A stretch of DNA of 64,000 nt from NCBI RefSeq assembly GCF_000002985.6, contig NC_003284.9, positions 15,004,001-15,068,000 of the forward strand. Reading direction: 5' to 3'. The stretch is from Caenorhabditis elegans (lineage: Eukaryota; Nematoda; Chromadorea; Rhabditida; Rhabditidae). A program made the translations under genes and the position numbers. Of this stretch, positions 57,371 to 63,184 are shown piece by piece (the first letter of the stretch is position 1; each line of letters starts with the position of its first letter). The notes beneath the pieces were generated by a model. It saw only the letters and a list, made by a program, of their open reading frames with translations, searched no databases and had not been told where the DNA came from.

Positions 57371-58148
57371 TTTCTACAGAGGAAACTGTATTCTTTTTTT
57401 TTGAGGAAAACATCTATTATAGTTTAGCATACAGTTTTCACATTTGAAATTTCGATTACATCATTTGATTGATTGATATATTTTTTACACGGTATTGCAC
57501 GATTTCGGTAACATGAGTTTTTGTGAAAAGATTTAATCTGTCTGACCCAACTAATTTAATGCAAAAACTGTTTCACTAGATAAATTTTTTAATCTTTTTT
57601 TTAGATCAGATTTTATTTACAACTTAGGTATATTTTGAAAACTGAAAGTTATAAGTATTATTATTTTGTTTATTTTTAAATTTTAAGAGAAAAATTATGA
57701 GTGTTTTTCTTACTTAGGCTCTCACTTCCTCCGTGCCTCTTATTTAACAAAACGCTGGTTACACTCTGGTTATTTTCGTGTTTATTCCATCTCCAAATGT
57801 TTATTTTTGTTCTGTTCATCTTGTTCATATCTTGAAGTGAAAAAAAATCAATCATTATCTTTAGAAATCTGTGAGTGAGTCGTTTTCTACTTGCCGCATA
57901 AATCCCGAGTACATTGGTACCCCCTTATTGCATATTACATTTCTAATTTATACTTATACTTAGAATTGCGCGATATTAAATTATTTTGCTCTTTCCATTT
58001 TGATTTATCACAGTTATACATGTATACATACATACTCGCATATATAAATATCCTAAATCCTCCTATTATCTCGAATTGATCCTCTTTTTTCTTTTTAAAG
58101 TGTACCAAAGCAGACTGAATCTTCTTACACCTTGTTTTTAAGCATATA
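57371..58148. other. Intergenic, no gene seen
   Basis: AT-rich; short ORFs only. Nothing recognised. Confidence 0.45.
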
Positions 58149-59742
58149 CAGTGCTCCACATAATGATACGGCCACCCCCAAATTTTGGTATAACTCAAAA
58201 CTGGGTTGAGATAGCAAAACATAGTTTCTTGTGAAAATGTTCGCTATACTAACTTGCTTTCAGATAAGTATTGGAAATATACCTGAACCGTTCGTAAAAA
58301 AGAAAACCATTTTTTCATGAAAAACCATATTAAAAAATCCACAAAATGATACGGCCACCCTTGGTTTTTGTTTTCTTTTTTCGTTTTCTTTGCAATTTTT
58401 TGCTAAACGTTAAGTTTCATGTTCGTTTGTGTTTTTACAGCTATGTGGTCGTGGAATAACTTTAACTGACTACGAAAAAGGACAAATTGTGCCAAATTAT
58501 CTCAAGGCTTCTCGAATCGTCAGATTTTTCGTGATTTGAAACTTTCGAGAGATATGATCACTCGATATGCTTCCAATCCTGCCGCTTATTGCACAAAAAA
58601 GTCTTCTGATCGCACACCTTTTCTTTCTGTCAGACCCAAGCGAAAAATCGTTCGTCGTACATCCAATTGAACAGTGACTTGCTCGAAAAGTAGGAGCGAG
58701 ATGAACCTGGCAGTGTCTGTTGAGGCCGTACGACATGTTCTTTTGAAGTCTCAGTTTAACAAAAGACGAAAATTAAGAAAGGCTCCATTCATTACCAAAA
58801 AAACCGCCAAAACCGTATTCAGTTTGCTAAAATCAGTCAGGGAACTAACTGAAGACAAGTGAGGATTACGGTATAATCATTCAAGCCCAGTTTTTGGTTT
58901 CAGTTCATCTTCAGTGACGAGAAAAAGTTTAACTGTGATGAACCAGATTACTACCGTGATTAGTGGCACGATTTGAGAAAAGAAAAGATGAACTGAAACC
59001 AAAAACTGGGCTTGAATGATTATACCGTAATCCTCACTTGTCTTCAGTTAGTTCCCTGACTGATTTTAGCAAACTGAATACGGTTTTGGCGGTTTTTTTG
59101 GTAATGAATGGAGCCTTTTTAATTTTCGTCTTTTGTTAAACGGAGACTTCAAAAGAACATGTCGTACGGCCTCAACAGACACTGCCAGGTTCATCTCGCT
59201 CCTACTTTTCGAGCAAGTCACTGTTCAATTGGATGCTCGACGAACGATTTTTCGCTTGGGTCTGACAGAAAGAAAAGGTGTGCGACCAGAAGACTTTTTT
59301 GTGCAATAGGATTGGAAGCATATCGAGTGATCATATCTCTCGAAAGTTTCAAATCACGAAAAATCTGACGATTCGAGAAGCCTTGAGATAATTTGGCACA
59401 ATTTGTCTTTTTTCGTAGTCAGTTAAAGTTATTCCACGACCACATAGCTGTAAAAACACAAACGAACATGAAACTTAACGTTTAGCAAAAAAAATTGCAA
59501 AGAAAACGAAAAAAGAAAACAAAAACCAAGGGTGGCCGTATCATTTTGTGGATTTTTTAATATGGTTTTTCATGAAAAAATGGTTTATCTTTTTTACGAA
59601 CGGTTCAGGTATATTTCCAATACTTATCTGAAAGCAAGTTAGTATAGCGAACATTTTCACAAGAAACTATGTTTTGCTATCTCAACCCAGTTTTGAGTTA
59701 TACCAAAATTTGGGGGCGGCCGTATCATTATGTGGAGCACTG
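58149..59742. mobile_element. Palindromic (fold-back) Tc1/mariner-type element, Tc3-like transposase half
   Basis: Bounded by TA on both sides with termini cagtgctccacataatgata and its inverse. Arms 58149-58911 and 58985-59742 are near-perfect reverse complements. Each arm carries the start of a transposase gene: an acceptor, then CGRGITLTDYEKGQI, a helix-turn-helix region (FSNRQI..LKLSRDMITRYA) and the basic linker. The frame is broken by small indels. The 73-bp spacer reads SDEKKFNCDEPDYYRD, a degenerate form of the motif around the second catalytic aspartate of Tc3-type transposases. The C-terminal half is absent, so the element is non-autonomous. Confidence 0.88.
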
Positions 59743-60014
59743 TATATTCTTTTATATTTTCATTCATTTTGGCGTTTTAAAGTAATCAAATAATCTTTAT
59801 TTTTAGAAAAATTCAAGAGTCTAATTTTTTTTAAATTTATATCAAAGACTATTATATCAATTATTTATATCAAAGACTTCTTCACTCAATTTTTAATTTT
59901 ATACTTCATTAACTTTTTTAAAACCTTTTTTGCCTCTTTTTTCCTTTGTTCACATGTTCACTACAATTGTTCGTAAATATCAGCGGTTTTAACAAAGTTT
60001 AACTTTATTACAGA

Positions 60015-63000
60015 ATGAGCACCAAAAATGTTGTCGAAAATGAAAATTTGCAACTGAAGGCTATGGATGAAAATATTGAAGAGGAAGACGAGCAGTTCTT
60101 GGCTGCGTCAACAGAAACTGCTAGGAAATTGGAGGATGATCGTCAAGGGAGAGAGGAAAAAGACGACATGCAAACCATGGTGGAGCCTATTGAAGAAATT
60201 TTGAAGAAAAAAGAGGCGGTCATATTGGAACTGGAAGAGAAAAATCTGCACCTGCAGAATGTCAACAATATGTTGAAAATCCGAATCCATCAACTTGAAA
60301 ACGCCGCAAGACAAGAAGAGCAAACGGAGCAGATCGAGCAACATATCCAAGTTGTGCCAGAAGACCAGGATGGTTGTTCTTCAAACAAGTGAGCTTTAAT
60401 ATTTGAAATTATTTCAATTAGGGAGCCTGCTACTTAAAAGTTGATTCGAGTCGTTTTGAAAATGTTTTCAAATTACAGAAAAAATAGACTGTACTGATCA
60501 AATGCAACTTAAAAAAATTGAAAACTTTAGAAATCTCCTATTTAACACTCGGTTTTTTTTTTAAATTTCATGTGTTGTCAAAAAAATTGTTTCCAGTCAA
60601 TTACAAAATTCGAATTTTCAGCCAACAGGACACGAGCCAAGGGAATAATCGGGAGACGCTTGGAAATATCATAAAGAGCAGAATGGAAGTTTCTCAACCC
60701 GCAATTGGAACCAGAGAATATCCCGTTCCATATTCTAATGGCAATTAGCGGATTGCCATTTCCACGGTTTTGCATGAAAACCGAAGTTTAGTATACATTC
60801 AAGGAGCACCTGGAACAGGAAAAACGTACACACTCACTCTTCTGATCAGCTGTGCCGTCAAGTTGAAAAAGCAGATTGTAGTGCTCGCGCCGACTTTTGA
60901 GACCTTGGAAAACATCAAAAATATGGCAACACGGACAATGGAAAAGCTCGGCATAAAATGTAGTGACAATGGTGAGTCAAAAAGACCTTAAAAGTTGTAA
61001 AAATCTTTTTTTTTAGTTTTCATGAGCACGTCCCAATACATAAACCTAATCGACACTGAACCATTGCAAAAAGAGGTTTTTTCAAACATAGCTGGCCTTA
61101 TCCTTGTCAGGGCCGGAGCTTGGTTACAATGAATGCTCAGAAAAGAAAAAAAACTATAATTTCCGTAAATTGGCATTTTTCAGGATATGATTGGAAATGT
61201 TCTAGTGGTGCTTGCAACGATCGGTGCTGATTTTTTGAATTTTGTGGCCAAACAAGAAGCATTAGATCCAAGCTTTTGTATCATCGATGAAGCCGGGCTC
61301 GTGATGGCATCAGAAACATGGCCGGATGTTTACAAATCGAAGGGATTTGTTATTGCCGGGGATCCGAATGAGCTTTTCCCACAAATATATAATCATGAGT
61401 AAGGGTTTTCGTTTTTTTTTTTAATTCCCGCCAAAATGTTTACTTCTCTTCAGTAACGGAAACGGATTTTTCAATCAATTTTGTTGTTTGGAGTTACTTT
61501 TCTTTCAATCATCTGTATCTAAAGATTTCATTTATTTTCCAGACAGAAAAGGCTTGAAACCCAGGTTTCTATTTTGGATTGCATCAATGAGAAAACAGAA
61601 AATTTGAGTCCGATTATTCTTGACACTCAGTACCGCAGCAATGAGACAATCATGGCATGGTCAAATGCTTGCTTTTATAATCCGAAAGTCAAAACTGATT
61701 TCAAATGTGGATCCCTCACTCTAAGGTAAAATATAGTTTCATTTGTGCAAAAAGGGGGATAGCTCAGTCAGTAGTGGTGACCGCTAGCAATCTGGAGGTC
61801 ACTTTCAAGTCCAGCCTCACCCCCTAGGTTCACCCAGCCTCTATTGAGAAGTGGAGCAATCCACGACTGGCTTATTGGCCATAGTCACCGGTTAGAACGT
61901 GGCTCAAATTATAGGCCAGTGGGAGCACCACCAGGCAGTGTACCTGTCTTCCAGATCCGCAGTGCATAGCACTTAAAGAACGAATCGTCCTTTAATCATT
62001 TAATCTTTAAATCGACATTTTCAGATCTTTCTTTAAAGGATCAAAGTTCAATCCTTTATTCCACCCGTTTGTTATTGTGGACACATCTTGCGAAAAGGAA
62101 ATGGAAAAACGGAATGAGACCTTTGAGTATTTGGTGTTTAACAACAATAATGAAAATGAAGGTTACGCTAATGTCGGTTAGTCACCTTTAAATTTATGAT
62201 CTAAAAATTTGAAGAAACAATTTAAAGCGTTTCTAGTTTACTATTAACCTTTAATTTGCTTTATTATGATCAACATAACTATATTATAAGCATTTAATAC
62301 AAATCGAAAATTGATTTCCGGCAGTTTAGGCATGCAACAGTTTAATAATATGTAGAAAAGTTTCGAAAAGTATAGGCACATTTTTCTCCAAATATTGATC
62401 CTCCATTAGTTTTTTGAAGTAAAATTCAACAGTTTTTGATCTTTAAATCCTTCTTTAACGGTTTACAACTCTTTCAGCTGAAGCAAAGATCGCCATGCAC
62501 CACTACAAACAACTTCTTAAATTGAAAGTTCAAGCTTCTGACATTGCGATCATCACTCCGTACAGAGGCCAAAGCCATGTTGTCAGACAAATGATGAGAA
62601 AATTCGCCAATGAAGAATCGCGTTCAGATTGTTTTGACACTCACGTTGGAGACGTTGATAAAATTGTAGGAAAAGAGTTTGACGTTGTCATTTTCACTAT
62701 GGTTCGATCAAACCCAAAATGTTTGTTTGATGTGTTTTTCATCAAAAAAATGTATTATTTCAGTGGACATGGGAAAAGCTGGTGACCCCCGTCGACTTCA
62801 TGTCATTATTACAAAAGCAAAGAAACATTTCATGTTCATTGGAAACGGATTTCTCCTTGCCGAAAACAACATGAATCATATTAATAAACTGTTTAAGTAT
62901 GTTCTGTTCCATTCCAAATTTCAATTATATTTTTCTTTTCAACTTTCGAGATCAGAAATTCTTGCAGCATTTTCAATAGCCCTTGTATCGGAATTCGCAC

Positions 63001-63184
63001 TAATCGTTTCAACCCGAACAAAATGTTCGGTCAAGATGAACATGTCCAAAACTCAGTTGAAATGTGCTACGGGCATAAGTTTAAGTACTTCATTGAGTAC
63101 AGTAACGATGGCAAAATGCTCGATTGGTGCAAACAGAAAAACGAAGAAAGAGATCAAGAAATTAGACAACTCAACAATTGTTGA
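60015..63184 (+). pseudogene. SF1 (UPF1-like) helicase with an amber codon at the Q motif
   Basis: Exons 60015-60388, 60622-60971, 61017-61105, 61184-61398, 61543-61725, 62025-62176, 62478-62720, 62764-62896, 62956-63184; 1968 nt with consistent phases. Residues 1-125 form an acidic coiled coil. The helicase core carries motif I GAPGTGKT, II IIDEAG, III GDPNELFPQ, IV LDTQYRSN, V VDKIVGKEFDVVIF and VI DPRRLHVIITKAKKH. A TAG at 60746-60748 interrupts YSNGN-*-RIAI just before motif I; relatives have Gln there (N..Q..A pattern). Two further deviations are Val for Gln in motif V (normally QGKE) and Lys for the Arg of motif VI (normally TRAK). A TGA near 61130 is avoided by the donor at 61106. Nothing else breaks the frame, so decay is recent or the product is two polypeptides. 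Confidence 0.78.
61753..62010 (+). repeat. tRNA-derived SINE-like element, type B, copy 3, in a helicase intron
   Basis: gggggatagctcagtcagta, B-box-like tttcaagtcc, then aggttcacccagcctctatt and gaacgaatcgtcctttaat, matching the 16697 copy along its length. It lies in the intron 61726-62024. Confidence 0.8.

Follow-up and report, generated by a model that had tools for sequence, protein, structure and literature searches.

An amber codon at the Q-motif glutamine position of a diverged, probably ATPase-dead eri-7 paralogue in the Caenorhabditis elegans reference

A gene for a UPF1-like SF1 helicase in the C. elegans reference is open over nine exons except for one amber codon, which raises the question of whether an otherwise intact enzyme has recently been lost, whether the stop is bypassed in some way, or whether the gene had already decayed when the stop arose. 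The gene is located at positions 60015-63184 (plus strand) of the stretch of DNA analysed, hereafter the window (64,000 nucleotides; C6:15004001-15068000 in the genome), and the contig is taken to be chromosome X of C. elegans, where the gene would presumably occupy X:15,064,015-15,067,184. All eight introns are of the GT..AG type (8/8) and the exon phases agree. The spliced coding sequence of 1926 nt includes two stops, a TAG at codon 167 of 642 and the terminal TGA; a single internal stop in an in-phase nine-exon gene is what an earlier note on this DNA had described. The features of the gene are the following, and the paralogue mentioned in them is a chromosome I (C1) locus presented below.

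60015 to 60388, plus strand: exon 1 of the gene model, the 5' exon, Glu/Lys-rich and coiled-coil-like by eye
60622 to 60971, plus strand: exon 2 of the gene model, with the TAG and then the P-loop (GAPGTGKT); its homologue in the paralogue is the exon C1:4455944-4456335, with the same acceptor phase
60746 to 60748, plus strand: TAG codon 167, in frame, at the Q-motif Gln position
61017 to 61075, plus strand: exon 3 of the gene model
61076 to 61183, plus strand: intron 3 (108 nt), located where the paralogue codes for 49 more residues; three in-frame stops
61184 to 61398, plus strand: exon 4, with motif II (DEAGL) and motif III (GDPNEL); 215 nt, equal in the paralogue
61543 to 61725, plus strand: exon 5, with a conserved motif IV (QYRSN); 183 nt, equal in the paralogue
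62025 to 62176, plus strand: exon 6 of the gene model
62478 to 62720, plus strand: exon 7, with motif V (IVGKE); 243 nt, equal in the paralogue
62764 to 62896, plus strand: exon 8, with motif VI (RRLHVIITKAK); 133 nt, equal in the paralogue
62968 to 63184, plus strand: exon 9, with the terminal TGA, shorter than that of the paralogue

The protein encoded after the stop matched the Pfam families AAA_12 (138.3 bits) and AAA_11 (38.7 bits), both above the cut-off of 27 for each family, and it belongs to the UPF1-like SF1 helicases. The best sequence matches in the PDB were SMUBP-2, DNA2, NAM7/UPF1 and SEN1, with 22 distinct sequences at E <= 0.001; the PDB alignments shown start past the stop and are therefore silent on the Q position. 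The part of the protein that precedes the TAG, exon 1 included, matched only the window itself in the genome search at E <= 0.001, and exon 1 showed no Pfam family above its cut-off. A match of this exon to Imm7 (E 0.098, 13.4 bits against a cut-off of 25) was taken as chance.

The search of the genome (100,286,401 bases, 7 contigs) with AAA_11 has revealed 17 places, which were grouped by the authors into 11 other gene loci. The window copy was absent from these 17 exon-by-exon matches, and exons of the paralogue were present at 59.8 and 42.1 bits. A Q-motif Gln was found at the position of the TAG in 6/6 other loci with a readable P-loop (pattern G.PG[TVS]GK[TS]); the motif patterns accept some forms only, and the remaining 5 of the 11 loci, with no P-loop fitting the tried patterns in the stretches examined, stand outside this count. 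Two chance motif matches were dropped, a QGRE-like one in exon 1 and a GDLPEL in a repeat of one locus (L034). The window copy reads PYSNGN*RIAISTVLHENRSLVYIQGAPGTGKT around the TAG, and in the alignment with the chromosome I paralogue the TAG faces the Q-motif Gln. Both the alignment and the six readable loci place the TAG where active UPF1-like enzymes have the Q-motif Gln, in agreement with the earlier note, and the possibility that the family does not have Gln at this position was thus checked and found not to apply to these loci. The P-loop is of the expected GxPGTGKT form, with 18 residues between it and the TAG and not about 15 as had been estimated. A C-to-T change from CAG is indeed the shortest route to TAG, but the paralogue codon is CAA, so a path to TAG by way of CAA and TAA is also possible. 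Because 41 of the 642 codons are one transition away from a stop, no special cause is needed for a TAG at this Gln.

The only close relative in the genome was found at C1:4451505-4456335 (minus strand), which by its position is taken to be eri-7. It is co-linear with the window gene, with 249 identical residues out of 512 aligned (48.6%), and the exons of equal length follow in the same order; most intron positions and the acceptor phase of the first common exon are also the same. As the closest genome match, co-linear and with a common exon structure, this locus identifies the window gene as its paralogue. The two genes differ in that the chromosome I locus has the Q-motif Gln and, in motifs II, III, V and VI, the typical residues that the window gene has lost, and in that it is longer both in mid-protein and at the C-terminus. 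At the site of its intron 3 the window gene lacks 49 residues that the paralogue has, in two gap blocks (34 and 15), and its C-terminus is about 40 residues shorter in the alignment. The length of intron 3 is a multiple of three, and when read in frame it gives 18 residues and then three stops; this intron may be a former coding stretch that turned into an intron.

The eri-7 mRNA has been reported to be made by trans-splicing with eri-6 (PMC3213143), whereas the window gene starts with a separate exon 1. A comparison of the window with the open frames of three 10-kb stretches around the chromosome I locus (L023, L024, L047) gave no eri-6-like coding match; it took in all open frames of these stretches and not a defined eri-6 sequence. 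Matches of these frames outside the helicase exons look like short repeats. The longest exact word common to the two coding sequences is 21 nt; it is found in exon 8 and codes for part of HFMFIGN, and elsewhere half of the third codon positions differ. Chance, selection or gene conversion may account for this word. An X-linked copy of eri-7 was not recognised in the literature searched without its gene name, a result which does not show that the copy is undescribed.

The comparison of the remaining helicase motifs has revealed that the stop is not the only defect. The window copy has DEAGL in motif II, GDPNEL in motif III, IVGKE in motif V and TKA in motif VI, where the paralogue and two outgroup loci have Q, Q, Q and R, respectively. 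Motif II is DEAAQ in the paralogue, DESTQ in the C1:1.18 Mb locus, which is smg-2-like, and DEAAQ in the C1:10.12 Mb locus; motif III is GDPKQL, GDHCQL and GDQKQL, and motif V is VQGKE, FQGRE and FQGHE, in the same order, with TRA in motif VI of all three. The window gene therefore has neither the motif III Gln (GDxxQL) nor the motif VI Arg (TRA) of an active enzyme. The change in motif II is the least telling, because the C2:11.78 Mb locus (DEASM) is likewise without this Gln. Residues Q665 and R865 of UPF1 are taken here to correspond to the Gln of motif III and the Arg of motif VI. Substitution of Q665 is reported to abolish the ATPase (PMC9914065), and that of R865 to remove both ATP binding and hydrolysis (PMC6888360). 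On the other hand, the window copy retains the P-loop Lys, the DE of motif II, QYR and, in motif V, GKE, and the Q-to-E and R-to-K changes are mild, so some nucleotide binding or activity is possible. The window gene is thus like UPF1/SMG-2, SMUBP-2, DNA2 and SEN1 in its AAA_12 and AAA_11 matches and in its best PDB matches, and differs from these SF1 helicases by the replaced catalytic residues and by the stop at the Q-motif Gln.

The rate of change points in the same direction. In a MAFFT alignment with the outgroups C1:1.18, C1:10.12 and C2:11.78 Mb, the sites changed in the window copy alone were 38, 52 and 25, against 15, 19 and 10 changed in the paralogue alone. In the 119 columns of this alignment in which the first two outgroups agree, 54 were kept by both genes, 21 were changed only in the window copy, 2 only in the paralogue, and both genes differed in 42; the TAG column was omitted from the count. 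Another count, with the outgroups aligned to the paralogue and the TAG counted as one change, gave 40 against 14 and 53 against 14 changes, and 20/75 against 1/56 conserved columns. As such an alignment favours the paralogue, the count was redone with MAFFT. The outgroup gene models were produced with the authors' own paralogue-guided spliced aligner, so part of the contrast may still be bias, which MAFFT removes only in part. The models at C1:10.12 Mb (L025) and C2:11.78 Mb (L026) each contain an in-frame stop, most likely derived from approximate exon ends.

The description of the gene as an otherwise intact helicase is not sustained by these data, considering the residues replaced in four further motifs and the faster change at conserved sites than in the paralogue. 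The statement that every core motif is present holds in the sense that the motifs are recognisable, with the conserved Gln or Arg of motifs II, III, V and VI replaced, and that of few other lesions holds for the frame, which is otherwise open, but not for the missing 49 residues and the shortened C-terminus.

Despite this decay, the reading frame bears the marks of coding constraint. Differences between the window copy and the paralogue by codon position were 174, 136 and 259 over 488 codons, and the gaps are whole codons. With 100 to 190 missense changes free of constraint, 5 to 12 stops would be expected and one was seen, this number of changes on the window branch being an assumption. The window copy thus appears to have been under selection for an open frame for a long time. 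As the rest of the frame is open, a nonsense change that is not ancient fits well, although the bound on its age is loose: since no second stop has appeared, as many as about 75 unconstrained substitutions (3.9%) may have accumulated in the coding sequence after the loss, which leaves the recency wide. The proposal of a very recent strain-specific null is consequently retained only in its first part, a null that is probably not ancient; "very recent" goes beyond what this bound supports.

The explanation considered probable is that the window gene is a diverged, ATPase-dead paralogue of eri-7 whose frame was maintained over most of its existence before a nonsense change occurred. On the X chromosome, it would descend from a duplication of eri-7, one half of the MOV10-like, UPF1-like SF1 helicase gene eri-6/7, and it has a separate 5' exon. 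The copy would then have retained its frame and most intron positions but lost conserved residues in four motifs (II, III, V and VI), and due to this loss the protein had probably ceased to be an ATP-driven helicase before the stop arose. The later nonsense change would have removed the codon of the Q-motif Gln, and translation should now stop after 166 residues, ahead of the P-loop. A long stretch after a stop generally directs an mRNA to nonsense-mediated decay, to which this mRNA should also be exposed. A restart would give an incomplete helicase core, because the first Met after the TAG (codon 226) lies beyond the P-loop.

The alternatives in which the stop is avoided were examined at the levels of splicing, decoding and assembly. 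Removal of the TAG by alternative splicing would be possible on paper through a 60-nt intron at 60689-60748, which is GT..AG, in frame, a multiple of three, ends in the TAG itself and spares the P-loop. Its donor scored 2.5 and its acceptor -5.0; the model sites used to train the scores gave 4.2 to 9.6 (16 donors) and 7.4 to 13.4 (17 acceptors). It would also delete the PYSN that matches PFSN of the paralogue. A total of 78 candidate introns removing the TAG with the frame open were found; the eight best-scored of those keeping the P-loop all had negative acceptor scores, and the best candidates overall lose the P-loop. The check for splicing past 60746-60748 that had been asked for thus gave no well-scored site pair that skips the TAG and keeps the P-loop, and this explanation is very unlikely. 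Still more improbable are readthrough or suppression of the TAG and its editing to CAG in the RNA, even though the codon occupies a Gln position and is followed by C, the most permissive context for readthrough. The 102 nt after the TAG (60749-60850) show ordinary folding (z = 0.78; 154 of 200 shuffled sequences fold as well or better) and not the stimulating structure of programmed readthrough, so that the suppressed codon formerly suggested finds no sign here. Such a rescue would not yield a normal helicase in any case, because catalytic residues are also missing further along the protein. A wrong base in the reference assembly at the TAG would be enough to explain the stop, but the C. elegans assembly is a high-quality one and the gene shows other signs of degeneration, and an error is equally hard to credit. 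With a frame-disabling TAG that is not spliced out by any well-scored intron keeping the P-loop, the window gene is either a pseudogene or a null allele of the reference strain.

Which of these two it is depends on the other strains. Single-defect 'flatliner' genes of the N2 reference have been described for chemoreceptor families (PMC2576165), and the window gene could be a segregating case of this type, null in the reference and open elsewhere in wild strains, where it would encode a weak helicase or a non-hydrolysing partner. The single stop in an otherwise open frame and the coding constraint for most of the history of the gene are consistent with this view, as is the variation in structure reported among wild strains for the paralogous eri-6/7 locus (PMC12258893), and it is a possible explanation, although clearly less likely than that of a decayed paralogue, since the lost motif residues and the faster change suggest an older relaxation. 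The window gene shares with the N2 'flatliner' genes a single obvious disabling change in a frame that is otherwise open; these genes belong to chemoreceptor families, and the window gene also shows older catalytic decay. A more elaborate version, considered unlikely, is that an eri-7-derived pseudohelicase was duplicated to the X chromosome, gained a new 5' exon and was kept as a protein of the small-RNA pathway that binds RNA or a partner without hydrolysis, null in the reference and kept elsewhere, with RNAi variation mapping in part to this locus.

If wild strains have an open allele, this gene would add to the eri-6/7 RNAi helicase locus a second one, X-linked and of common descent, with natural variation, and would allow one to test whether a helicase-like protein is kept in frame once its ATPase residues are gone. 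A fixed TAG would make the gene an ordinary decaying duplicate, with its value in correcting the reading of an otherwise intact helicase.

Two repeats were observed in and around the gene. Intron 5 includes a dispersed repeat (61752-62010) with 336 first-look candidates in the genome, of which 40 were scored, the 39 others being 88 to 90% identical; its start is tRNA-like by eye, yet no tRNA was predicted anywhere in the window by ARAGORN. A large near-perfect palindrome (58140-59751) precedes exon 1 by some 260 bases, with arm pieces 97 to 99% complementary and many genome copies, at least 65 among the matches listed and up to 99% identical; it resembles the palindromic Tc6 element and may be a copy of it.
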